Of a stretch of 64,000 nt of DNA, positions 1 through 64,000 are shown one piece after another (the first letter of the stretch is position 1; each line of letters begins with the position of its first letter). A model generated the notes under the pieces. That model worked only from the letters and a program-made list of their open reading frames with translations, was not told the origin of the DNA and did not search any database. Source of the stretch: Pegea sp. RAD2-039. Taxonomy: Eukaryota; Chordata; Thaliacea; Salpida; Salpidae. The position numbers and the translations under genes were made by a program. The stretch is taken from positions 620,001-684,000 of the forward strand of contig JAQGEQ010000177.1 of the NCBI GenBank assembly GCA_034620365.1, read 5' to 3'.

Positions 1-1
1 T

Positions 2-569
<568 letters not shown>

Positions 570-3334
570 AAAGTGAGATGAAGATTTTATAAAATTGCTG
601 CTTAATAAGAATTAAATTATTGTTTTTTAGAATAGGACTTTATAGAAAAACTATAAAAACAATACTAAATTTTAGCACTCAAAAAATTTAATGACTATTT
701 TTTATGTTATTTAAAAAATAATTTATAGCTACAGATAGAACACAAAATTATCTAAAAGTCATTTAGCAGTAAAATAAACTTGTAAAATTATGAACTTTAA
801 CTCTAAATGTTAAATCAAGTTATTCATTTCGACTAATCAATAAAATTAACTAAATGATTAAAAACTAAACTAAATTATGCAAAATTTATTTAATAAAAGT
901 TTTATGAATAATTTTTAAATCTATATAAATAACTTAAGTAATAACACATAGATATAACAAGTTAGTAAGAAATTTTTGTCTTAATCGTGAAAGTAGTTGA
1001 TAATATTATTTTTTTTGTAATTTATGATTCTAAATGATTAAAATATTTTGAAAACATTCATTTATCTTATTATAGAAATGAAAAAAATATATCTCAAAAT
1101 GACCAATTTATTATATAAATATAATTTTATTATTCAATACTAAAAATTGAAATAAAGGACATTATATTAACATGACTACAATTAAATAGCAATATTATAA
1201 ATCTTATATAAGAAATTGAAAATAAAATTTTCTAAGAATAAAAGATTAAGCTTAAAATACTTTCAATAAATACAAATTGCACTCAGACCACATAGCTTCA
1301 GTTATACTTCATAAAACTACTTTTAACTGCTATTTAAACGCACTTATGAATTGATTTCCCTATATATACTAACTAAACAACTTCAAAATTGATTTTTACA
1401 CGCTCACAACATAATTTAGAGCTAAAATACAAGCTATGGTTCTAATAACAATTGATTGATTCAAGTCACAAGGATTTTGATTAAATTCATTAATGAGTTG
1501 CAAAATGAACATAATAAATAGAAATAAAAAGTACGTACAATAATCAAAAACATAAATTGTCAAGTTAAAAATATTTTCTTCAAAATTTCAGTGAACGTAA
1601 TGAAGACAAGCAAAATATTAGTAATTATTGATCAAGTCGATAACATAGAATTTCAAATGTAACAGATAGTAACATATAAAAAAAAAGTCCCTAAAAAGCA
1701 ACTACAGATTTTATTTTTGTGGATGTGATATGAATGGTCACTTTGATGCTTTAATAACATTATTATATTTTATTATAAAAAATACTTGGAGCTATACAGA
1801 ACAAAGTGGAATCAATCTGGCTAATTCTATTATAATACTCCACATATATGCTGGATTTGAGCCAGTGTCGCTGGTTCTACAAATCAAATCTTTTAGTGCG
1901 CTATCAAGAAAAAAATTTAAAAGCTATTTAAACCTTTAATTGTCTAGTTATTTTATCAAAATTTTGATAAGGCATGCAGCTGATAATTCAGTAACGTTAT
2001 TTCAACTTTTACTTATGACTCAAAATTTAAAATAAACTCAGTCTGTATTGACAATTTAAGTTGCAAAACTTGATTATTCTATAAAACGAAATTTTTCGTA
2101 ATGAAAAATGATATATACTGCAGAAAAATTTTGGTATATCCAGTTTAAAGAGTAAATTGTTCTTGTGTTCAGGCGTAGTAGTCTTTATGTAAAAATGTTT
2201 GCTACTATCAGTAAATGTGTAAGCTAATTAACCACAGAAAGAAGTAAGGGGAGAAGTTCCAATAATAATTTTCTTTTATAACTCTTTCTTTCTATAATTT
2301 TTTTCTTGTAAAACTAACAGAAACCGGTGGGTTGAGTCAGCACTTTGAACTCTAAATATTTATCTGTTATAAACAGTTTTTATTTATTTATTTATTTATG
2401 ATCTTACTTCTCTTTCAAATTAAATTGTATGCTTAAGGGTTACTTCCTGTTAGTAGGTGAAAACTAAGAGCTCGTTTTGATTACAGTGTATATGATACTT
2501 TTCCTCAAAATAATAGCAATAAGTAAAAGGGAACAAAAAAACAAAATTGAAAATGTAAAGCATTGAGTTTTTTTCATTTTCTGATATAACAGTAAGTTTT
2601 GTTCATGACCATTTCAAATATAGCTTTAAAAAATTTTTTGATTGTAAGTCAAATTTTAAAACTGTTAAATTTTCAACTAGACTCTTTTCTATTTTCAATC
2701 TTTGCCAGAAATCTTTTGTTAATAAAATCACGTTTTAAATTTAAAATAGTAATAAAAATAAGTTTTAAAAAAATAATTAAAGTATTTTTTACCGCATTGG
2801 TAACTATTAATTACATATTATTTCTGATTAATCGACAAACTAATTCCTTTGATACTGTTTCAACGACTTTTAAGTTGTTCTTTTAGAATAATTTATTTTT
2901 AAAATTAGGACTAAATAAATAATTTTATATAGTTATTTTTATATAATTTTATAATATAGCTAGATTTATATTTTCTTTAAATCGTTTTATTTGACTTTTT
3001 ATTATATGTTTTTCTACTTTGAGCTTTTATTTTATGAATTTAAACAATAAATTGCACACTTTGCATAAATATTGCTTAGCAGCTATCATTATCCAAGTTT
3101 TCGATCTGATATGACGTCTTAATCTTGAATTATTTACCATAGGAACATAATTTTCCTTTTAAAATACTTATTTATTTTTCCTATAACCCATCAAGTTTTA
3201 GTTCGGTAATTCTTTCTCTTACCAATTTAAATATAAATCTCTCTTAAACCTGGCGATTTAAGAAAAACTTTTTCTAGTGTTTTTATACTTTAAATTTTTT
3301 AGTAAAAACTTCTTTAAACTTTTAAAGGATTTCA
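570..3334. other. Intergenic, between PACRGL and nanos
   Basis: This stretch separates the divergent PACRGL and nanos starts. It is AT-rich with frequent stops. Short open frames near 1730 and 2599 are low-complexity Phe/Ile/Lys/Leu strings without recognisable domains, and I do not call them. Promoters of both genes should lie here. An imperfect TTTA tandem run sits at about 2377-2399. Confidence 0.6.
2377..2399. repeat. (TTTA)n microsatellite
   Basis: About five tandem TTTA units are visible in the intergenic DNA upstream of nanos. Confidence 0.8.
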
Positions 3335-4674
3335 ATGAACAATAAAATGTCACAAGGTCACTGGAATACAAATGACCCCAGATATTTACCAAATGCCTTT
3401 TTACCTGCTGTACCTATATTAGGATATCGACAACCTTGTAACTATCAGGAGCTGATGAGTAGACAATTATTTTTAAGTGGCAACAATAGTCTGCCTGACA
3501 AACAGCATTCAGTAAATTTCAATAAGGTACCTGGTTTTGCTACCGACTGCTCAGTCGATTGGTTTAAACAAGAATATTCTCAGTAAGCAAGATTCTTGTT
3601 CCTAATTTGTTTCATTTTATTAACTATTGATGGTTTAGTTTATTGCTTTTTACCGTTTTTAATTAAAAGTTTATTTAAGATTTATTTTTGTAAAGTTTAA
3701 AAAAATGTGCTTAAATCTAATTAATGATTTGCATATATACATTGATATTTTTGAAATTAACATTAAAATATCGAGTAACTTGAAGTTTAAACCAGAAGCA
3801 TACAAGTAATTTTTTGACTGAGCTTTGTAGGCCGAAGTAGTAGATGAAGAGAAAATGAAGCCATACATGCATGTTAACTAAATAAATTGCTTTTAAATAC
3901 CAATTAGTCAAAGGTTCAAAACCAGAAATTTTATTTTATAATCATAGCTTTGATAGCTTTTCTGTTTATAGGTTTTTTGTTATAACTTATTATATGATAT
4001 GTTTTTTAGGTTAATTAATTCTTTAGCTATTGATTTAAATTTAAAGTTATTGACCATATGCTGACTAAGTTAAAAAACTTTTTTTATTTAAAGCTCATTA
4101 AGTATTTCACAAATATTTTTTCCACATAATTTTTCTTAATTGATGAAAATATTATTTTTGTTTTAGTGATCCTGAATGTCATTTTGAATTTCAATTCAGT
4201 GCAAATATTTCCAGTAAAGCTGCTAAGGTTATAAAAGCATAAAATATGGTTTAACTTCATCAATTAACTTTTAAGATTTTCAGCAGATTTTCCAAACAGG
4301 TTCTACTGTAAACCAAAAGATGAAATTTTGCGTTTTTTGTAAAAAAAATGGGGAACCTAAGAGCTTTTTTTCCTCACATTCTCTTCATGATCAACAAGGT
4401 CATGTGGAATGTCCAGTTTTGTATAAGTAAGTCATGCTTAGCTGTTTAATTTGCTAACTGATTGCAATTTATTTAAAGATATAAATGCTCTTTTTGTAAG
4501 GCCACCGGTATTTTGGCTCATACTGATAGTCATTGCCCATATTTCCCACGAAAAGCTGTTATTTCACGAGATGTCACCCAACAGTTGTTTTATTCTGCCA
4601 CCAAGAGTTCTGGTGAGCACCGAAGAATCCCTGCAGGTTTCAAGCAAACTAATTTGATGAAGACGAGCAAATAA
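3335..4674 (+). CDS. nanos: Nanos homologue, CCHC zinc-finger translational repressor
   Basis: Four exons (3335-3582, 4167-4227, 4284-4426, 4479-4674) encode 215 aa. The double zinc finger at residues about 119-170 has the exact Nanos spacing C-x2-C-x12-H-x10-C-x7-C-x2-C-x7-H-x4-C, with CSFCKATG and AHTDSHCP in the second finger. It is split by a 52-base intron between the two fingers. Nanos proteins bind Pumilio and recruit CCR4-NOT to repress maternal or germline mRNAs in the cytoplasm. The 118-residue N-terminus is unlike any I recognise and shows no clear CNOT1-binding motif. The C-tail is about 45 residues and basic. The intron 2 donor (AAG before GTTATA at 4228) is weak; a GTAAAG donor at 4210 paired with an acceptor ending at 4299 would also keep the frame. 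AATAAA occurs at 4915-4920. The family call is very secure. Confidence 0.93.
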
Positions 4675-6211
4675 TTGAACACCTGAGAGTTGGATTTATC
4701 CACAAGTTTTCGTTTTGACTGTTTTCGTTGTGTTTGTACTCTTGTGTTAGTATAGCATCATGAAGCTTACTCGTATATATTTTTTTATTAGGTTTCAGTT
4801 ATTGTTTTTTCAGTTAAGTCAGTTCTTGTCTTTTTTAATTGCTACATTTTTTAAGGCACTGATAAATATTTGCATAGATTTTTTAATTGAAAGCTTGTAT
4901 TGAATAGCTAAAAAAATAAATGGAATCATTTTTATTGTGACAACACTATAGCAGGAGCTATCAACTTTGTAGAGCTCAACAACTATACATATTGTTTACA
5001 GTTAAAAAAGTTCTCGTAACCGAATAATCACAAATTATGTCTCAAAAACTTGAAGCAAAATAGTTTTAATGCAAAATTTGATGTTTATTTTTATTACTGA
5101 CAAGATTAATTGTCAAAGATGTCCCTTACTCATTCAGCTGTGATATTTTAATCATTTCACTAAATACTTATATATCGGAATACCAAAGCAATCTGCGGAT
5201 TTGCTTGAAAGTTGGGATATTTTCCCTCTAAACTTTCAAAACCCAACCAGATCCATACCTTTTAACTCTTTCAGCGTAAATATGATCTAACAATTCAAAC
5301 TCAAGATCAAAGACTTTAGTTGAATCTACTACTCAGTTAAAGACAAAAATGAATCTATCCCATCTTTACGACGATTAGGCTTTAAACTCGTTACAAAGAT
5401 GAAATAATAGGTCAAGTTAGCAGTATCTGCTTCGATTAAAAGACCGTCTTTTAAAAACAGCTTGCCTCAAATCTGATTCAATTTTATTACTTTAAAATTT
5501 GTTATTCTTGGATAGGTTTAGAAGGGATGTAAGATGATAAATGAAAGTTAAGAGTAGATTGAAGTTGTACTTCTCATTCAGAAGCCTAACAATGGAATAG
5601 TAGAGAGGTTTTTATACAAGTTTTATCACAACTGTTATTACAAATAGCTTTCGACATGAAATATATTTTTAAACTATTTTTTCATAAAAAATGTCAAAAC
5701 AATTCAAGCTCCGAGCTGGCAGAGTCATCTAAATTTGAATATGATTAGAACTACCATAAAACATTCTTTACATGCATTCAGGTTTATTTATGCATAAAGC
5801 ATCTCCAAATTACTGCTAGTGATGTCGTTTAAAATCAGGAAAAATTTAAGAATGAAAACGATATTTAATTATTTACATAAAAACTTAAATATGTCATTAA
5901 AAAATAAACTGTAATTAGTAAAAGCATTTAAGTTAAAGTTATTTAAAATTTATTATAATCAGTAAGGTGTTTCCGAAACACGAAATAAATTTCAGGGAAA
6001 AAAAGTTGAAAATGAAATTTGCGAAAAAATATATTTAATATTCTACTCGTAAATAAAGTATATATTTAAAAAGTAAAAATATTATAAAAAACTGCAACAA
6101 AAATTTGAAACAATATTTTGTAATATGAAGAAGAGTATATATTTTCACTGATTTTTTTTGGATTGAAAAGGCAGTTTTGAAAGACAGACACAATTTAGAG
6201 GACTGTAAAAA
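4675..6211. other. Intergenic, nanos to transferrin-like gene (convergent 3' ends)
   Basis: The plus-strand nanos and the minus-strand transferrin-like gene converge here. The stretch holds the nanos 3' UTR and otherwise AT-rich DNA. I see no ORF or RNA gene. Confidence 0.6.
4915..4920 (+). terminator. Likely nanos polyadenylation signal
   Basis: A canonical AATAAA lies about 240 bases after the nanos stop codon. AT-rich DNA yields this hexamer often, so only its position supports it. Confidence 0.45.
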
Positions 6212-8961
6212 TTAATTGATTGTTCTTTGAGAATTTTCCAAATTAAATTCATTAAAAAAGCATCCACCAGTTTCATTAGATTTAATTCCATTGAATTCAA
6301 GAAAAGATGTACCAAGAAAAGCCTAAAGAAATTGTTAAATGTTTACTAATATTTCTGTTCTATGAAACAACTTCAAATTACCTCAGCTGTACAGTTAGGC
6401 TGCAGAGGAATCAATTTCAAAGTTCTATCATCAAATATCACATTCTGACCTTCAGTACTTTTAAAGAGACTGAAAGCTTCATGAGAATATTGACCAAAGT
6501 ATAACTGAAAAACGAGAATGGAAAATTAAAGCAATTAAAGAGAAGTGACACTCACATAAGCTATATGTAAAAGTTCAAGTATTTCAAAAGGAACTTGAAC
6601 ATCAGAACCCATTCTTTCTTTATTAGAAACAACTACTGAACGTGATGGTACATATATTCTCGTACAATCTCTATATTGAGACAAGGATATAAAAGTTCCA
6701 TTCTTACAGACTATATGAACCTCCTAAAAGAAGATAAGAACTTAAAACTTATGTTGAAAATATTTGATTCTATTTTACTGCAACTTACAGATTCGTTCAG
6801 TTTTTCAGTTTTGATTGATTCTTCAATTGAAGTAATTGTTGTGAATGCAGCTCCGTGGCAATCATTGAATGCACTGTAGAATCACATGACTAAAACTTAG
6901 CTAACATTTGTAATTGTCTGAGTACCTGTGTAGGTCGGGGCGAACGTTAATAACCAAAGGGCAGCGACCATATTGCGTCAAAGAATGGTTTACTGTTTGT
7001 TCACCATAAGAGAAATAGGTTAGAAAACGTTTATATTTAGATAATATGAATAATTTAAAAGAAAGATAAAAAAAGTTTCGTTTCGAAATGCCAGTACTTT
7101 TATAGATAATGGAGTGAACTGTTAATATCCAACAAATGTAGTTGTATTTGTACTCAATTATTTTCAAAGTAATTTATCAAATCAAACTGTCAGCATTTTG
7201 TAGACTTTCTAAAAACGCAATTCGATCTAACTACGTAAGTCACAAAATAGAAAGTTGTTGGAAATATGGAAAGCACTTTCAAACATCAATTATTCATTGC
7301 ATACGTTACAGCTAAATAAAAACTTAGAAACTTACTCGAATTTTTAATAATATTTGGAGAAGACTTGTTTGTTTTCATATCTGTACAATACGAAACTTTA
7401 CATGTGCCCTTAATCGTCGTTGATTTATAAGAAGCAACCACATAGGATTCACCCATCATAACTAGAAATAAAAACTGAAGAATAAAAAGATGCGACAACG
7501 AGTGCTTGATTATCTGAAGAAGTACGATTACATTAGAGAAAAACAATGTTTTTGAGGTTTTCTTGAGATCAGTACCAAAGTTCATCCCATACATCCTTGT
7601 ATTTTTAATTATAAAATTCTGATTTAAATTAGTTTGAAGTATTACAAAAAAAGTATTTTTAAGAAACAGCAGAAAGTGATTTCAGAAAAACGACTATTTT
7701 ATACCAAAATAAATCAAGATTAAGTAAATAAAATACAACTTAGTTTATCAGAATCTTAGTAAAAGGATTAATAAAAGTTTGAAACAATTTACACAACTCA
7801 AAATAAATCATCTGGTGATATAGGTTTATGAAAAATATAATAAAGATTAAAAATTACTTCTTATCATTTATCAAAAGATTCATAAATACCTTTTGTAGTG
7901 ATATTATTTATAAAAAGCTCCTCTGTCATGATTGGCTGAAGTTTATGTCTATAATCGAAGAGAAGTTGAGATGTTAAAGTCATGGTGTCAACTTGATCGG
8001 TATCAATTTTTGATACACATTTATCAACACTGTCTTCAAGTTGACATTCTATTTTTGGTCGAAGTGATTGAAGGTCAAAGTAACTTGCCATCATCATACA
8101 TTTATTAAATTCATTTAATGATGTACAACACCATCTAATATCTACAACATGAAAACAAGACAATATATTAAAATGAGTAAAATTTAACAAAGTAATAATT
8201 ACTCCAATTATTTACAAATAAAAGTATAAAATCCGAAAAGGTATCTGACTTCGGATTCTTCCATGAGCAACCACTGCAACAATAATAAGAGCAAGAAGTA
8301 CTATTGTTGTAAAAATACTCCAAGTAAGGTAACAACACTTGATTCTACATCTCTTTCGTGCTTTTTGACGGGTTGACTCTTCTACTTGAGGTACTCCATT
8401 GCTTGGTAATTCAAGATCTGTACCATTACTTGGTGACTAAAAGATATAAATAAATCAAAATATGTCTTATAAATGTGATCTCTTACAAGATAGATATCAA
8501 CAAATATTACAAACAAATTCTCTAATTTAATTTATGTAATCAATTTATTGTAAGTATACTGGTTTATAATAGAAGAGATGAAATGAACAGATTTACAGTA
8601 ATAAAAAATATCAATTAATTTTACTGACATAAATAGCTTAATAAAATATAAATATATTTCCTCATGTTTAATAAACTAACTTTCAACAAAGTTAATTATT
8701 GGATTTAAATCTAATTATTATAAAAAATCTTAAACAAAAGAACATTTATCAAATAATAAAGATTAGATCAGTCAAAAAGAATGACAAAAATAAAACATAA
8801 GATTATTTTAGAGGACTTTACCTATTAATTGCTAAGCAACAAAAACAGCATAAATTATAATAAATAAAACTTACAAAGTCATCGAGTTCAATTCCTTGCT
8901 CATTTAGTGTAAGTGGGTTTTCATCATCTTCAAATGCCTTACTATATTTAAAGCTTGCCAT
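6212..8961 (-). CDS. Type II membrane-anchored, single-lobe transferrin-like protein
   Basis: Nine exons (8961-8875, 8436-8250, 8141-7890, 7461-7336, 6992-6926, 6873-6789, 6723-6556, 6504-6382, 6322-6212) give 401 aa. Every phase agrees and a stop ends exon 9. Residues 1-64 are an acidic then basic cytosolic tail (QKARKRCRIKCC). A hydrophobic segment at about 65-86 suggests type II topology. Residues 93-401 follow one transferrin lobe: IRWCCTS, KC, IEC, a CVSKI...MTL strand, HGAAF, VCKNGT, YRDC, VVVSN, FSLFKS, IFDDRTLKL and a closing NCTAEAFLG. Against human transferrin from memory, the Asp ligand is Thr148, the second Tyr is about Leu238 and the His is about Ile253. The first Tyr (Tyr182) may remain. 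The stretch normally holding the anion-binding Arg/Thr is about 80 residues shorter. Iron binding is therefore unlikely. Exon 2 uses a poor donor (GTCAGA), the weakest junction. Confidence 0.85.
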
Positions 8962-11900
8962 AATAAAAGTCTTTAAAAATATGTTAATTATTTGAACATT
9001 TATCATTTGATAAATGATATACTAATATATTTTCAGTTTATAAGATAAAACAATTTAACAAAACAATCTTAATTGGTAAAAAATATGACTTTAGAAATAA
9101 ACTAATAAATGTTAAGCCTAAGATTTAATACTTTAAACATAAATATCTTTAAACTACATTTTCTTTAATGTTAATATTGTTAATTAAGAAAAAAGACCCA
9201 TTCATTTCTTTTTAATGTATAATTTCTGTAGTAAAAAGCTTTGTGACAAAAAAAACAAAATTTTTATTTTATTACCAAATCATCACCTGATGAAACTTTA
9301 AACAGTTATATTAAAAAAAATATCTTTTTAAATAGTAATTAATACTTATTATAAAAATGCTATTGGCAACCAGTCTAACTAGTTGTAACTAACTAAAATG
9401 CATACCCCTATTCATAACACAAACTTTAAGATATGATATATCACTTTATCTACAATGAGCTACAATAATAATTTATTTCAAATTGTTTATAAGCAGAAAA
9501 TAAACATGAATAAAAAATAAACAAAACATTGATATGAGAAGTAAACAAATGAAAATCATCTAAATTATGGACTTAAGCTAAAAAAAATAAAACAATTTAA
9601 ATAAATGGCTATAAAAGTTAAAAAAATCTTTAATATAGAAAACTATAAAAAATTATTAGCTATTTTTCATAATAATAAAACTGATAAATTAGTTAAAATA
9701 CTTTATAAATAATTAGTAAATATTATCAGAATAATTGGATACATAAGACAGATCAAAAGCTAAAAAATGTTATTAAAGCAGTTCAAAAGATTATTTAGCT
9801 TAAAAACAAAATATAGGAAGCTAAATAAATCAATGAAACTAGTTTAGTTAGATATACAATGATAAATTTTCTTATAAAATCTAAGTATAAAATTTACAAA
9901 AGTTTTTCGTCATGTAATTATGTTGAAATGAATAGATTGAAAACTTTTAGAGATACAAACTTTAAGAGAGCTACGGTTCAATGAGTAATTAGTAGAGCGT
10001 AATGAAAAATTAAAATGGTTTTTTACAAATTTGTTTCTTTTATGTTTTTTTACAATACCAAAAAAAGAAGTAGCATAACAAAAACTAAATCTAATACATT
10101 GAATAAATATCTATATAATAGATTTATACAGCATCAAAATGAAGATTTAGTTTAAATGTAATAAAGTACTTATATGCTGTAGTATTACTATCAATTAATT
10201 TGTAATTATTCTAGCTATAAATAATTTTTTGAGTGGCTCATAATATTTTATTAAGCAAATGATAGCTTAATTGGCTGTGGTAGTGTCCTCCCTTCAAGCG
10301 TAAAAATGATGTTGATAGCAAAGGCTAAGTTACACAGCAGAAATTAGGGGTTTTACTAATTATGCTTTATAAAAATTATGACTTAAAAAAATGGTTTAAA
10401 ATAATTATATTTTACTTATATAGTTTTAAATCGACATTAAATTATTATATCACTCATAAGATTTATGTGATTTATTAAATTTAAGAACAAAAGTTAGTAA
10501 TTAAAGCTTTTGCAAAAAAACCTTTCTAATATAAATATGTATAAATTCAATTATCATTCAACATTTTTGGCATAATATTACACAACATTTTGAGTTGCTA
10601 GTTACTTGCTTAGTTTATTGAGTCGCTCAAAGTAAAAAGACATCGGAAAAGTAAAAATAACGACTAATTTAAAAAAAACAGTTTGAGCTCGAAGTTCAAC
10701 TCAAAGTTGTTTGTTTGAAAATCGAATAACAAATAAACTCAATAACTTAGATCTTCATAAAGCCCTGGAGTCATCAGATAAGTTAAATTTATCACTAAAA
10801 TCTAATTCTAGTAGTAAGAATTGAGTTTTTGTAAAAAAACTTTGAAATAATTGTTGAATTGAGATATGAGATATATATGGTCACCTGAAGCCTCCTCGTA
10901 TCAAAATTGAAATCCATTTTCAAATAAGTGAAAGAAGTTGTTAAAAAATAACTTTGATTGAAATATAGATGAATGGATGATTAATCTCACCAGCCTCTTT
11001 ATATTCTTAGAAGACTTTTACAATCAATTAGGGTGCTTTTTCGATGAACAGGGTTTCTAAGATTTCTTTATAACTAACTTTATAATATTTGCTTGAAACA
11101 ATATCTTGTAGTCTTAATGTTGTTGAATATGAATGTGATTTTACAATTGAAGGCGATAAAAAAACATAAATAGCTTTTCATTAAGTTTTGGTGCTCTATA
11201 TTGGGTCAAAACCAACTTCACTTGTAATACAAATCATAGTTTTCATTCACTTGAAGTACTTTAAGAAACTTTTGATAAGGAAATTTCTAACCTGATAGCT
11301 TTTGCTAAGATATAAAAATAAAATTATCATTTTTCGAAAATAAAGTTATTCATGTAATGACAGTTAATTCATAAAATACGAAAATTCCATTAAAAATTTG
11401 TATACATAACTATAGACACTAACATCTGACAAACGATACCAGAATAGCTTTTAGTTTTGATTAATTATATCGGAAAAAAGGTTGATAAATTATTCTTTTA
11501 TCAAGAATTAACTTCATCAACTAGCTAGTTTTATTTTTCTGAAAATTTAAAGAATTTCTTGTTTTGTTTTATGAAACGATGTATAAAAATGCAAAATATA
11601 TATTTCTAATAAAAATCCTGTTCAACATTTTTAGGATAGAAATTAAAAAAAGTACTTTTAGTGATTATTTTTTCTAAACTTTAGTGCAAATTGATAAAAA
11701 TCATTTTTGTCATTGTTCATTTCAGAGAAGATGAATTAATATTAGGCAAACATGCAGAAAACCGATGGATTTCTTCAGGAAATCTGTTTCTTTATTTAGT
11801 CATCTATTGAACTATTAGGAAGTGATTAATCAGAGGTTTTTAGAAGGTTAGTTTAGAGATACCCACTAGGTGTCACTAACAAGCTTATAGACTTTCATTA

Positions 11901-12736
11901 TTGCAAAATAATAGTCATGCAAAAAAAGAGATTTTTCCTTTTTAAGCACAGTCGACAAGTCATTTGTTATCTCTAGACTATCGCGTCAGGAATGGTTAAA
12001 AGTTATTTTAATTCCTTCAAAAAGCTAATAGATAAGTTATTAAATTCTTAAAAATATAAAACAACATTTTTTTTTCATTTTGATGTTTAGTTTACAACAC
12101 AAGGTAACTTTTAAGTGTATTAGTAATAACAGTTTAACGTTGTTGGTCATTAATTATTTATAAAGTTGTATGTTAAATGTAATTTGTCGCATTTATTAGT
12201 ATATTTTCTCATGTTAGAATCAAATAGATTATTTTTTCTGACTTAGCTATCAGCATACCACTGCATGTGTTTTTACATCAGTTTCTAAAAGTGTATTTCT
12301 TCATTTTTTGAAATAAATTTTCAGGTAAATGGTTTTAGAATTATCTTTAAGTCTTTAATATTGCAGTTTGCAGCTGAAATATAAATATGTAATTGAATAT
12401 TTTCTAAAACTATAGCTCATTTCTGAAAGTTGAAACTTAAATATCAATGATCTATCAATATTGAATTGTATTTAGTAATCTAATATTATTTTCTTTAAGC
12501 TAAAATCTTTATTCTTTGCTTAAATTTAATTTTATCAATGAAACATTTCCAGCTTGAGTAGATTTACAAATTCCAGGAAATACTTTTGTTGGATTTTCCA
12601 GTGATATTTAGAAGTTTGTTTTGCTAATCTCCAATCTATCTTCGAATACCGGTCACCTATCTTTGATTTTTGAGTAACTCTGAAACAATTGAAAAATTCA
12701 ACGGCTCACCTACGTCAACGTTTTTGCAATGGTATT
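8962..12736. other. Intergenic between divergent transferrin-like and FoxA genes
   Basis: The stretch holds the transferrin-like promoter (start 8961) and the FoxA 5' region. A TTTTTAAAG acceptor-like tract lies about ten bases before the transferrin-like ATG. The DNA is AT-rich with no convincing ORF. A small patch at 10264-10320 has a tRNA A-box-like word but no B box. Confidence 0.6.
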
Positions 12737-14482
12737 ATGTTACAGTCGACCCATTCTTCCAAATATCACTCTACTACGTTCCACCAAAGCTTTGGGTCAG
12801 CACCTGCTGGCGTCCAAAACGTTGCACCAATGCAATCATCTTACATGGGACCTATCAACCCAATGCCAATTGGTTCAACTGGAAGTGGTAACCCAGTTAG
12901 CTTTAATAACGTTATTAATCAAAGTTATAACCCAGTATCTTTAGACCATCAAAATGCTGCAGTTATGAGTAACCACGCTAGACAACTGACCAGAGTAGCA
13001 CCACCAAATATGTCTGCTCCCCCTTACGGAGCACCTATGCCTGGCTCAGCTATTTCGCAGAATATGGCGCTAATGTTGGGTCAACGTGGTATGGACAACA
13101 AACCTTACAGGCGAACTCTCCCCCACGCCAAGCCTCCATACAGTTATATTTCTCTAATCACGATGGCTCTACAGTCATGTGATAAGCAGATGATGACTTT
13201 AAGCGACATATACAACTGGATTATGAACTTTTTTCCATTTTATCGTCAAAACCAACAACGATGGCAAAATTCAATACGTCATAGTCTTTCGTTTAACGAT
13301 TGTTTTGTTAAAGTACCTCGATCGGCGGATAAGCCTGGAAAAGGCTCTTACTGGACTTTACATCCAGAGGCTGGTAACATGTTTGAAAATGGATGCTTCT
13401 TGCGTCGACAAAAACGTTTCAAATCTACGAACAAGGCAAAACTAAAAGTAGGGCAAAGTGGAGAAGGAAAAAACCAGTCAAATATTTTCGCTAGCCAAAG
13501 TCCATCAACTCCAGCAGCTGTTAATGAAGAGACGAGATCGAATTCAGCTGTAATGGTTGGAGCATCATCTGTAGCTGAAACTATTCCGAAAATAGAGCAG
13601 CACGTCGAAAGTTCAAAGTTGAGAAATTCTCCAGCCTTGAATGGCTCCAACGATAAATCTGAATATCCTTCCTGTCGTTTAGAAGTGGCTCGGAATACTA
13701 CCAACTACCCACAAAGTCCAAGCTCAGAAAGTTCTTCTCGAAACAATCTGAGATCTGAAAACATCAACGATTCATCTTTGACCCCAACTTCAATGATTAA
13801 TAATTCTGTTGGCTCCCAACTATACCACAGAATGGCATCAGTTGGTTGTGGGGTGAAAACTGAGAAATCATCTGTTTGTGATCAATCTTCTCGTTGTAAC
13901 AATGAACATGCGAATGTTTCTCAATTTGAACAACACCAGCAAACACCTGGCTGGTATAGTAATGCTGCTTATTCATTCCAACAGAATAACGTCATCGTAT
14001 CAGCAGTAGCAGCTGCTTCTAACTCCTTTGCAGCAGCAACTCATCCCTTCTCAATCACAAATCTAATGCACGGAAACGCAAGTAATGGCTTGATATCTGG
14101 GGCGAGCTCATCTCACACGGGCACAACTGATCATAGCCACCAGCAGCGTCCATCCGCCCATGAAAACAATTATAATTCAAGCCATCAGCATAATAGCAAA
14201 GAGTTTTACGTATCTTCAGTTGCACCCTCTTACCAGCAGCATTTTGTACCAACTAGTAATGAACGCATATCACCAATAAACAATCAGCAACAATCTCTCA
14301 CAGTGGGATCTCCTGCTGAAGTGGCAACTGCTTCTTCACCACCATTTGTTGGCAGCTATATTTCTATGAATGACTCTAATCAATATGGACAGTTAGTTCA
14401 CATGACTACAGCGTTGGGAAGTGATCGTCAAGCAAGACTTGGAATTGGACAATACAGTAGCACACCTGTATCTTACTACTAA
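12737..14482 (+). CDS. FoxA: FoxA (HNF3/forkhead) transcription factor, intronless
   Basis: A single open frame encodes 581 aa from the first in-frame ATG (MLQSTHSS). The frame is open upstream to a stop at 12671, but without another ATG. The forkhead winged-helix domain (residues about 132-229, bases 13130-13423) begins [13 protein letters not shown] and includes [38 protein letters not shown] and [12 protein letters not shown], diagnostic of class A. The preceding YRRTLPHA and the downstream HPFSITNLM (residues about 436-444, FoxA conserved region II) confirm it. Flanks are rich in Ser, Asn, Gln and His. FoxA proteins are pioneer factors for endoderm and pharynx, binding TGTTTAC-type sites. 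IYNWIMNFF replaces the common IYQFIMDLF. The gene stands alone, with about 3.8 kb upstream and 23 kb downstream lacking provable genes, fitting a large regulatory domain. Confidence 0.97.
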
Positions 14483-16689
14483 ATGGAGTTGTGAATCATG
14501 TTTTGATTAAATTTAATTCCTTTCAGTAATATTAGGTAATGAACTTCTTTCTGCATCTTTTTATTTTAATTTACAAATTTCTATTTAACTTTTTTTAACT
14601 GGTTTTATTTGTAATTAGTTTAAACTTTTATCTACAATCCTTTTTATTAAGCAGATTATTAATCTGAAAAGTATCAGCTAACAACTAACGAAGTAATTTA
14701 CTGTTTGATACTTTTCGTCCCTTGAAAATATCTCACGACGTTTTCTTCTTTTTTGATTCGTCCAATTTAGTTTGACCCTCTTTGTATCATCATTACGTTT
14801 TATTTCGTTTTGCTTGGCTGGTTTCTTTCATCACTTATTATTATTTAACAACTTTATTTAAATCAAAGATTTTAACTAAGGATTCTCATGTGCAGATTTG
14901 TATGCAGATATATAGATGAAAATTGTAAAAAATAAGTTAACCTAGTTTAAATGCTGCTTCAGATCTTGTTATCGTGCTGACTTCAACGAATCTCTTAAAT
15001 ACTAGTGACTGACTTTACAAGGAAGTTATTTGCACAAATCTTGGTAACGTCATAATTTTGCAAATCATTTATTTAGCTTCTGTTTGATTCCTTTTTAGCA
15101 ACGATGACAAGGGCTTATGATTTTATTTTTAGATAGTTTTTGTTTCATTTGAAAATCATAGATTTTTTCTTTATTTTTTATTATGACGAATTTTTAATTC
15201 AACTTTTATGATAAAATCTGAATCAGAAATATTTTAGGCTTTTTTTGCAAATAAAAAAGTACTTAATTGTTAAGCATTAAATTACGACAAATTTCATTTT
15301 TTGCAAAGAAGACTAAACAAGTTTAATGAAAAATCTTTTGAATAATTAAATCATTTTTAATTAGGATCAGTTTTCTGTTATGTTTTTACTTTGATTTTTT
15401 ATATTTTTATTCAATATAATTGAGTTAGTATTAATGAAATACTTTTTGCAAAAGAACTTTTCATATATTTCAAAAATTAGAGTTGGACAATTTTCAAGCA
15501 CAAAGGTGGTACTAAAAACTGTTTTCCCAAAACCATATAAACAAAAGAATGAGAAAAAGGTCAAAAATATTTGATTACAGTCAGCTTATAAGCTGTCATT
15601 TAGATGATTTGAAAGTGATTAAAACAAACTACACGTTGCATCATTAACTTAAAACAACTGATTTTGTAGTCATATTTCCTAAAACACTTACCACCCGTGA
15701 TAAGATACCATACAACTAAAAAAAGTTAAAAAAACGCTTTTGTTCGATTTTCTAAAAGAATCTAAATCAAATGCTGATTTTACGTTGCTTTCACCTAATA
15801 CTGATATCCAGTAAAAACTACAATTTTGGACATTTTGCGTGAAATTGCTGCCTACAAAAACAAATAACTTTTTTTATATTCTTCTTTGTGATATTTTGTT
15901 AGTTTTAATTCTTAATTCGAAGTTTGTTTATCATCTTTTGGTTTTCTACTTTTAAAGATTGTAATCTGTAAATACTAACCTTTTTCGTTTCTGTTTTTTA
16001 TTATCTTTTTAATTGTGGTTCGCGTCCGAAACCGTTTTAATGATGGTGATATTGCAATAAAATGACATTTAAACAGAGTTTCATATTTTTTAGAGATCAA
16101 TTTAAAACTCGAGAGCAGCAAGTCTTAATTACCACCTATTAAGTGAAGTCACAAACAAATATTTTTTTCAGATAGATCAATTTCTATTATATCGGAAGAC
16201 ATTTTTTTCTAAGCTGCAAACAGCCTAAAGTTTGATTGTTTTTTAAATCGAAAGAGGAAGAAAAATCGGTGCAGCATCTTTGTCATACAGACTTTTATCT
16301 GTTATCTGATACCAGCAATATCAAATGGCTGAGATAATGGCTGAAAGAGTTCCATTTAAAAATTAAGGTAAATTCTCTTTATAAAAGTAATCACAAAAAA
16401 GAACTGTCATTCATTCGTACCCAGACCATAAGGAAACTGATTAATTAGCCAATAAGTTACGGATGAGAAATTGGTTGGAACTTTTTCGCGTGTATTCATG
16501 TATTTTATTTAGTCATCAAGCGGTTACCATGACAATATGGCGATACATAGTTGCCAGATATACGTCAAAATAAAATCACCTTCGGGTTCTTGGCAAACAA
16601 ACTACTACGATTTAATTTGTCGCACGTGTTTCTGTACTAAAACACAATAGGATTATAGTAGTTTACATATAAACCTCTATCAGTCGACT

Positions 16690-62001: not shown

Positions 62002-63384
62002 TTATTTTTCAGTCTGAGATTTAACAATTGACATCAGGTAAACAGGATGCATCATAGCAAAGCTAATCATAATGAGAAAACATATATAAAATAAAGTAAA
62101 GTCGTTTTTCATGACACCAGAAATTAGTAGACTCAATGGAAATTGTAGCAGTAAAAACAAGCCGCTGATTACAAATGTAATTGAATACAAGCTTCCGAAG
62201 TGCTTAGTTGGTAAGCACATACTTAAAAAAGAAGCTTGTGTACCAAAAAATAGAGAACGAGTCAAAACAATAAAGAGAAGTGTGAGCCACTGAACTTCAA
62301 TATTTGGTATAAGACTAAATACTAATGCAAGAAATAAACACAAACAACATAATAATTGCGTAAATGCAACAGCTTTCATTTCAGCTGACTTTAGATCCAA
62401 TGTTTTCTTGTACATCTTTATTAAAACATCAATAATAGTACCACTTACTGATGAAAAGAAAAAACCAGAACACAGCAGCATACCAAAGATTGTATTGTAA
62501 GAGCTGGCAATGTTTTCATCATCTACTTTTGTTTTAATCCAATTGTTGAAATTACCAATGAAAAAAATAAAACAAAGCAATATGATGCATGAAAAATAAA
62601 CGTTTGACCAAAACATTGGTTTCTTAAGTGAACTTTTTAAAGATACCTTAGATGCTACGTTTAGTATCTGAGTTACCTCTTCTGGTTCATTAATAAGTTT
62701 GCTAATTCTTTTTCCAGTAAAGCAAGAGAGATCTTTGTATCCATACTTAAAATCTACTGGAAGCTCTGAAGGAAGAGTTTTTTTTGGCATGAGTAAAAAT
62801 GTACGAATATAAAATAGAATAGTAAGTGATGAACAAAAGTAGAACATATGATCCAGCCTTACACCAAGTCTATAAAGAGATCTAAAAACTAGAAAAACAA
62901 CTGAAGAGGAATCCACTGATCCACTAATAAGATTAATTATTGTTCCTTTGTATTTTTCAGAAAATCCAGATATTCCATAGTTTGTTACCAACAGCCCATT
63001 ACCTCCAACGCTTATCAAAGGAAATGCAGCATAAAGTAGAGCCGAAATGTGTAAAGTTGCTGAAATTCCTGCAAGTAGAAATCCAAGTCCAATCATTCCA
63101 AGTACCACTACTCTTGTGGACCATAATCCAAACTGATCCATAAGAAATCCAGGCAAAAAGCACAACAATGCTGCAGAAGAAGATGAAACTGTGAAAATTA
63201 AGTTTAGTGCATTTTTTTGATCATCGCATGTTTCGTTTATTATAGAATTGTTTTGACAATTTTCAGCAAAAAAATCTTCACTTATTAAAATAGGGACAAG
63301 GGAAGACCAGCCAAAAACTACTCCAGCGTATAATAAAGTTTCTAATATTGTTGAAATAATAGTCAGTACAACTTGAATTTTCAT
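62002..63384 (-). CDS. slc43a3: SLC43-family major facilitator transporter (SLC43A3-like), intronless
   Basis: One open frame of 460 aa with about twelve hydrophobic segments. Family landmarks in order: GVVFGWSSLVPIL in TM1, EDFF and a Cys-rich sequon-bearing first loop (NNS, NETC), LIFTVSSS, DQFGLW, the VDSSSVVFLVF segment (about 157-167), RTFLLMP (194-200), TRSLFFG, and the late FGSLYSITFVISGLFLLLQF region. These match SLC43A3 (equilibrative nucleobase transporter 1) best. Its relatives SLC43A1 and SLC43A2 carry large neutral amino acids, so the substrate is not settled by sequence. It is a plasma-membrane facilitator. The length is slightly under the vertebrate 490, mainly from a shorter central loop. 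It has no introns although most neighbours have seven to nine, which may mean retroposition or intron loss. A CACTTTTCAG acceptor-like tract lies about 20 bases before the ATG. Confidence 0.9.
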   Translation of the reverse strand: MKIQVVLTIISTILETLLYAGVVFGWSSLVPILISEDFFAENCQNNSIINETCDDQKNALNLIFTVSSSSAALLCFLPGFLMDQFGLWSTRVVVLGMIGLGFLLAGISATLHISALLYAAFPLISVGGNGLLVTNYGISGFSEKYKGTIINLISGSVDSSSVVFLVFRSLYRLGVRLDHMFYFCSSLTILFYIRTFLLMPKKTLPSELPVDFKYGYKDLSCFTGKRISKLINEPEEVTQILNVASKVSLKSSLKKPMFWSNVYFSCIILLCFIFFIGNFNNWIKTKVDDENIASSYNTIFGMLLCSGFFFSSVSGTIIDVLIKMYKKTLDLKSAEMKAVAFTQLLCCLCLFLALVFSLIPNIEVQWLTLLFIVLTRSLFFGTQASFLSMCLPTKHFGSLYSITFVISGLFLLLQFPLSLLISGVMKNDFTLFYICFLIMISFAMMHPVYLMSIVKSQTEK

Positions 63385-64000
63385 AATTGACTGTTTGATA
63401 ATTCTGAAAAGTGATCGATATTTTAATCGTTAAAATATATACAAATTTAACTAAAGAATAAAAGATCTGCTTGATTTCTGTTTAAAAAGTTAGATACTAA
63501 AAATCATACCAATAAATAAGTAAATGAGTTAATAATTAACTACTATTTAGCCAGATAACATTTCTAACATAACCAACAACTCTAACTTTTATACTTCAAT
63601 TAAAACTACATTTTAAATGTAAACATGGGTACTCATCTGACAACAGCTACCTGTTCAAACTCAACATAAAATAAAAACTTAGTTGAAAAGCAGTTAAGTC
63701 AATTTAGTAGTTGACTTGAACACTTTCTATTCCAAAAAGCTAAATCAAGAAAAGTTGTGTTATATACCAAACTTTCAATATAAGCTAAAAGTAGTTTAAA
63801 AGACATATAAAGGGAATTCAAATAAATCTAGTTTGAACAAGTTTTTGTATTATAGACAAAATAATTTTATGTAACAAATGAATCTGAAAATTGGAATTTG
63901 TAAACAAGTATTGGTATAGCTTGAAAGTAGAGGTTGGTAACAAAAGTTTTTATTATTTTCAATCTTATAATATCATCAGGTTTTTATTGTATATAAATAT
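63385..64000. other. Upstream region of the SLC43-like gene
   Basis: AT-rich DNA that should hold the transporter promoter. I see no open frame or RNA gene up to the right edge. Confidence 0.55.

Follow-up and report, generated by a model that had tools for sequence, protein, structure and literature searches.

Tunicates and vertebrates are sister groups, and vertebrate transferrins are secreted or GPI-anchored. An ordinary transferrin lobe has two subdomains, N1 and N2, which clamp the iron between them in the manner of a jaw. Transferrin lobes can also take new small or protein ligands, as saxiphilin and the carbonic-anhydrase inhibitor illustrate. Melanotransferrin is a membrane-bound member of the family with two lobes and a C-terminal GPI anchor. 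In the N-lobe of cod melanotransferrin, Asp and His are replaced, the latter by Arg (PMC3125230). Further, an otolith protein, fish OMP, exemplifies a monolobal transferrin that does not use iron and has taken on a new role; the passages that describe it mention no type II anchor (PMC3125230), and we liken it to the protein presented here by description only. Two kinds of tunicate transferrin come closest to our locus: monolobal proteins such as nicaTf of Ciona, and bilobed proteins with a type II anchor. The ascidian entries P0002 (Phallusia), P0003 (Clavelina) and P0004 (Ciona) have, in place of the usual signal peptide, what is predicted to be a type II anchor at their N-terminus, and their entry names ('serotransferrin-1' or 'melanotransferrin-like', the former in Ciona and the latter in Clavelina) conceal this topology. 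Within the titles and abstract openings of open-licence papers on tunicate, monolobal, anchored and non-iron transferrins, we found no type II tunicate transferrin.

The window, by which we mean the whole analysed stretch of 64,000 nucleotides, harbors a transferrin-like gene on its minus strand, running from 8961 to 6212. Its nine phase-consistent exons, as already recognized in the initial annotation, encode 401 aa followed by TAA, and all eight introns have GT..AG borders (16 splice dinucleotides all in place). The weakest borders are the donor of exon 2 (GTCAGA) and the acceptor of exon 5, which has a purine-rich lead. The check proposed with the initial annotation, a search of the 401-aa protein with Pfam Transferrin (PF00405), gave a significant match in two stretches (80 bits at a cut-off of 20.3, E 2.5e-22). 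Even exon 3 alone, unspliced, was detected by a genome-wide search with this profile (E 1.8e-7). The best solved relative in PDB is melanotransferrin 6xr0 (E 1.3e-30), and the names saxiphilin and carbonic-anhydrase inhibitor occur in the same search results. With a codon-usage model built from the genome's remaining three transferrin genes, the assigned frame is the best of six in 8/9 exons; the exception is exon 5, where one antisense frame scores higher (0.018 vs 0.009). The nine-exon transferrin-family gene is real. We suggest that it is probably a fast-evolving paralogue of type II transferrins, which has kept N1 and a predicted anchor, has no iron-holding residues and likely serves as a surface binding module and not as an iron carrier.

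In the assembly searched (105.7 Mb, 387 contigs), PF00405 and the N-half of one paralogue, C265, agree on four transferrin loci, a count that degenerate copies below the reach of the searches would escape. These are C35, C20, C265 and the window gene. A search with the window protein recovered three of the four and missed C20; neither this search nor the one with the C265 N-half revealed a second copy of the window gene in the genome. C35 and C20 are monolobal, have intact iron ligands and a start that by eye resembles a signal peptide, and are apparently secreted. C265 (L010, 3206-7186, minus strand) is a bilobed type II transferrin of 742 aa in 17 exons, with an intact iron site in its N-lobe and a 19-residue tail that ends in SRC and is followed by a hydrophobic segment. 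Its N-terminus is supported by P0001, a protein from a JGI data set. P0001 and C265 share 83% identity over 73% of the query, and the source of P0001 is presumably a close relative; the best named database relatives of C265 are those of Clavelina (45%), Phallusia (44%) and Ciona (42%). The models of C265, C35 and C20 were drawn by eye from GT..AG borders and family likeness, the window exon model having been set before that of C265. P0001 guided the placement of the end of C265 exon 2, where the phase is 1 at either candidate donor.

Several minor observations concern the same loci and the host. In the C-lobe of C265, a GDVAFVK motif is followed by D where H is usual. Upstream of the monolobal C20 gene lies a direct duplication of ~1.2 kb, seen as repeated open frames (L011, about 1400-3800). 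In a search for iron-responsive elements, neither the window nor any of the three paralogue loci had a match to an Rfam family at the gathering threshold. The pairing of cellulose synthase with GH6 is a tunicate hallmark. As expected in a tunicate, contig C14 (L021, about 2309-6140) carries cellulose-synthase-like glycosyltransferase frames and then GH6 frames, the GH6 piece being one of two over Pfam's cut-off. Together with the ascidian best relatives of C265, this makes the host very likely a tunicate. A rotifer (Brachionus) origin was considered and abandoned in view of these two findings; a rotifer spliced-leader pattern had no match with up to 2 mismatches.

The N-terminal part of the window protein is encoded by two exons. 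Exon 1 (8875..8961) provides the ATG, judged by eye to have A at -3 and G at +4, and the predicted cytosolic tail up to residue 29; judging from sequence, an in-frame ATG 45 bases upstream could also serve as the start, in a weaker context. The rest of the tail, a C-x3-W signature and a predicted transmembrane segment at about residues 65-87 come from exon 2 (8250..8436). Hydropathy, on which the topology call rests, displays one strong segment (KD19 2.70 at residue 68, runner-up 1.14). Because this single segment comes after a run of basic residues and ahead of the lobe, type II topology is predicted, with a cytosolic tail of ~65 residues and the lobe outside. As a prediction, this agrees with the type II membrane protein of the initial annotation. 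It differs from melanotransferrin both in the position of the only strong hydrophobic segment and in having one lobe instead of two.

The anchor has close counterparts. Like the window protein, C265 and the Ciona, Phallusia and Clavelina proteins combine a predicted N-terminal cytosolic tail, a C-x3-W signature and a membrane segment ahead of a lobe. The signature is present in 5/5 rows of alignment A1, window protein included, and the proteins of P0001, Phallusia, Clavelina and Ciona all have a short N-terminal tail, a Cys, a Trp four residues later and a hydrophobic segment. When the window segment was compared with these anchors, its own shuffles scored as good or better in 0/2000 cases for C265 and Ciona alike, in 3/2000 for Phallusia and in 35/2000 for Clavelina. 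Since both this genome and the Ciona, Phallusia and Clavelina entries have bilobed transferrins with a like type II anchor, the anchor of the window gene appears to be inherited, not new. The initial annotation, which knew of no described family with this layout, overlooked that type II-anchored transferrins, bilobed and with intact N-lobe iron sites, are present here and among the ascidian entries. What is new would be that the C-lobe, the iron cleft and most of N2 have been lost. The bilobed proteins have two lobes, intact N-lobe ligands and 21-27 residues before the hydrophobic peak, whereas the window protein has one damaged lobe and 67 such residues.

Where the gene belongs in the family can be approached through its introns. 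Their phases (0,1,1,1,2,0,0,0) are identical to those of introns 1-8 in C265, the one bilobed type II gene whose structure was drawn. Intron borders of the two genes fall in identical alignment columns at the last three positions (365, 422 and 475), the exon 4/5 border is one column off, and the other four window borders differ from the C265 ones by 6 to 12 columns, in parts of the alignment that contain gaps. The string of phases, known in this single comparison gene, is in our opinion the strongest argument for the proposed type II placement. Profile scores point the same way. The window ectodomain reached 119.6 bits with an HMM of five type II N-lobes, compared with 88.8 for six other-animal lobes, 76.0 for four type II C-lobes and 51.4 for two monolobal lobes, these sets differing in size and the monolobal model having just two rows. 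Identity to the type II N-lobes is 25-29%. In the tree, the window branch is very long (4.64) and its grouping with type II N-lobes has support of 75/70; the AU test retains placements among type II C-lobes (p-AU 0.205) or monolobal proteins (0.193) and a grouping with just the N-lobes of C265 and P0001 (0.271).

One could therefore ask whether a monolobal transferrin of the nicaTf kind, represented by C35 and C20, through which we liken nicaTf to our gene, gave rise to the window gene by gaining an anchor exon. Such an origin would readily account for the single lobe, in a protein of the same subphylum, and it fits with the AU test, which does not reject the grouping. The window gene also has in common with C35 and C20 the WCC at the lobe start, missing from C265, and the intron at column 422. 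Speaking likewise against the type II placement, some intron places are common to the monolobal genes and C265: column 422 exactly, 328 and about 186, but none of 243, 365 and 475. On the other side, the phases of C35 and C20 are different (1,0,1,1,2,2,0), the window gene has no counterpart of the introns that they carry at columns 150, 270 and 377, and it has neither their signal-peptide-like start nor their iron ligands. Given further the low monolobal HMM score, from that two-row model, and the C-x3-W anchor common to the window gene and the bilobed genes, we regard a monolobal origin as improbable and retain the type II placement.

What is left of the lobe is mostly N1. An HMM of 17 lobes, 350 positions long, matches the window ectodomain solely at 1-80 and 209-333, which we take to be the two halves of subdomain N1. 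The first half is encoded by exon 3 (7890..8141), which starts the lobe with RWC and supplies the match to 1-80; exons 7 (6556..6723) and 8 (6382..6504) jointly supply the second. The cysteine pairs 9-48, 19-39 and 227-241, all of N1, are retained. Between these halves the gene has shrunk, and N2 is not recognizable by the lobe HMM. Exon 4 (7336..7461) has no match to the HMM; its counterpart elsewhere holds the first Tyr and the anion site, neither of which can be recognized here. Exon 5 (6926..6992, phases 1 to 2) corresponds to the C265 exon that holds the second iron Tyr and lacks its motif, and exon 6 (6789..6873) is the last part of the shrunken N2 stretch. The three exons measure 126, 67 and 85 nt as against 153, 160 and 106 nt in C265, i.e. 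278 nt vs 419 nt or 47 codons fewer, 31 of them from exon 5. Shortening around the anion site had been noticed in the initial annotation and is real, while the size given there, about 80 residues, is too large by this comparison of exon lengths. From the N2 cysteine cluster 1/6 letters is left; some ectodomain cysteines have no counterpart in the human N-lobe, and the ectodomain carries seven sequons.

The lobe ends in exon 9 (6212..6322), which contains the stop codon; the corresponding exon of C265 continues towards the C-lobe. We found no second lobe: when 17 lobes were searched by tblastn against window positions 1-16000, repeated matches fell on this gene alone, and five isolated weak matches elsewhere (E 0.021 to 1.0) included none common to two lobes. 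The single lobe claimed from the outset is thus confirmed, unlike the two of tunicate type II transferrins. No N2-like missing exons appeared in the introns of the gene at E 1 or better in a tblastn search with the 17 lobes; several matches run on from exon 3 through intron 2.

The positions of the iron site itself are lost or unrecognizable. Of the comparison lobes, with no row dropped, 17/17 have Asp, both Tyr, Thr and Lys/Arg, and 16/17 have His. In the window protein 0/6 iron and anion positions are aligned with the right residue, the first Tyr being unsure by one residue. Human D63 corresponds to T148 and H249 to R296, the latter within VPSR in place of VPSH of exon 7, according to three alignments and the HMM; the same replacement of His by Arg is described for cod melanotransferrin (PMC3125230). 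Human Y95 corresponds to S181, adjoined by Y182, and T120 to V198, all in exon 4, in two alignments. The loss of the first Tyr is nevertheless uncertain, because Tyr182 is one residue off the Y95 position and the third alignment (A1) puts this stretch elsewhere. Human R124 and Y188 face gaps in one alignment and T202 and C245 in another, in a stretch outside the HMM match. The initial annotation was right about Asp and Thr148; its other two assignments have to be corrected, since the His position is Arg296 and not about Ile253, and the second Tyr, placed at about Leu238, is without firm counterpart. Its claim that the iron site is lost holds, and the loss goes further than supposed, as N2 is no longer recognizable. 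We consider transferrin-type iron binding by this protein unlikely, and the idea, likewise proposed at the beginning, that the scaffold was reused for something other than iron is probable.

A metal or small anion might still be bound through an altered site, for example by Tyr182 together with ligands newly arisen in what is left of N2. Besides the position of Tyr182 next to that of the first Tyr, the ectodomain cysteines without human counterpart could contribute to such a site, and saxiphilin and the carbonic-anhydrase inhibitor are precedents for new ligands. We find this very unlikely. N2 is beyond recognition, Asp, His, Thr and the basic residue of the anion site have been replaced or lost, and nothing in the sequence points to metal.

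A protein so far from its relatives could also be the product of a dying duplicate, either a recently released pseudogene or a gene in near-neutral decay, with no function. The very long branch and the loss of the iron site together with most of N2 would be expected in that case, as would the lack of relatives: none scored in the protein database, neither for the whole protein (1764 candidates) nor for residues 262-380 (31 candidates). These searches need shared 5-letter words and a length window of 0.55 to 1.75, and relatives from Ciona savignyi (644 and 661 aa) escaped them, although the database search with C265 brought these up. Against decay, 401 codons are open over nine exons with 16/16 splice dinucleotides, and the cysteines of N1 are retained. 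We simulated neutral evolution by random drift of the C265 N-half at the base composition of the window, with 200 runs per level. Open frames after drift numbered 0/200 at each of 80, 60, 45 and 30% identity. The mean number of stops was 6.7 at 80% identity and 22.9 at 30%, and already at 80% identity at least two stops were present in 200/200 runs. As the window frame is open while none of the neutral copies is, this implies that selection kept it for most of the gene's history. A dying duplicate is for these reasons an unlikely explanation, although a very recent loss of function is compatible with these results.

The paralogue that we favor, a selected type II protein with N1 and anchor, may have arisen in the following way. 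A bilobed type II gene would have been duplicated and truncated after its N-lobe. The N1 core would still be held by disulphides, while N2 would be down to about 79 unalignable residues, leaving no iron jaw. Because N2 is so reduced, the likeliest working mode may be that N1, open and glycosylated, serves as a platform for binding a protein partner at the cell surface. The lack of iron-holding residues likewise suggests a switch from iron carrying to binding something else. The protein could act as a decoy or adaptor for whatever its bilobed sister binds; alternatively, its ectodomain could work in adhesion or signalling, in combination with the enlarged cytosolic tail. A more specific version, which we offer tentatively and think doubtful, is a pseudo-transferrin receptor or decoy in which N1 would serve as platform, N2 would be discarded and the tail enlarged for signalling, and which would compete with or report on the type II sister. 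Microbial or cellular transferrin binders would be examples of its targets, although this is a guess.

Two aspects make the locus important. Firstly, the existence of type II membrane transferrins as a branch in tunicates is relevant to the question of how transferrin iron came to be taken up by cells. Secondly, the window gene illustrates how far a lobe can be dismantled, down to one subdomain and no iron site, with the frame still open, and so permits a direct test of non-iron transferrin function.

The window contains other recognizable genes as well. Adjoining the transferrin-like gene, a Nanos RNA-binding zinc finger (PF05741, E 1.9e-21) is encoded at about 4320-4674 on the plus strand. 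The Nanos-like frames were joined by eye over one intron and span about 3335-4674 in whole; a small frame without Pfam match at about 3335-3586 may be the 5' exon. An uninterrupted frame of 602 aa at 12674-14479 on the plus strand contains a Forkhead domain (5e-37) and looks FoxA-like by eye. Finally, a 475-aa frame at 62005-63429 on the minus strand belongs to a transporter of the major facilitator superfamily (PF07690, E 4.4e-11).
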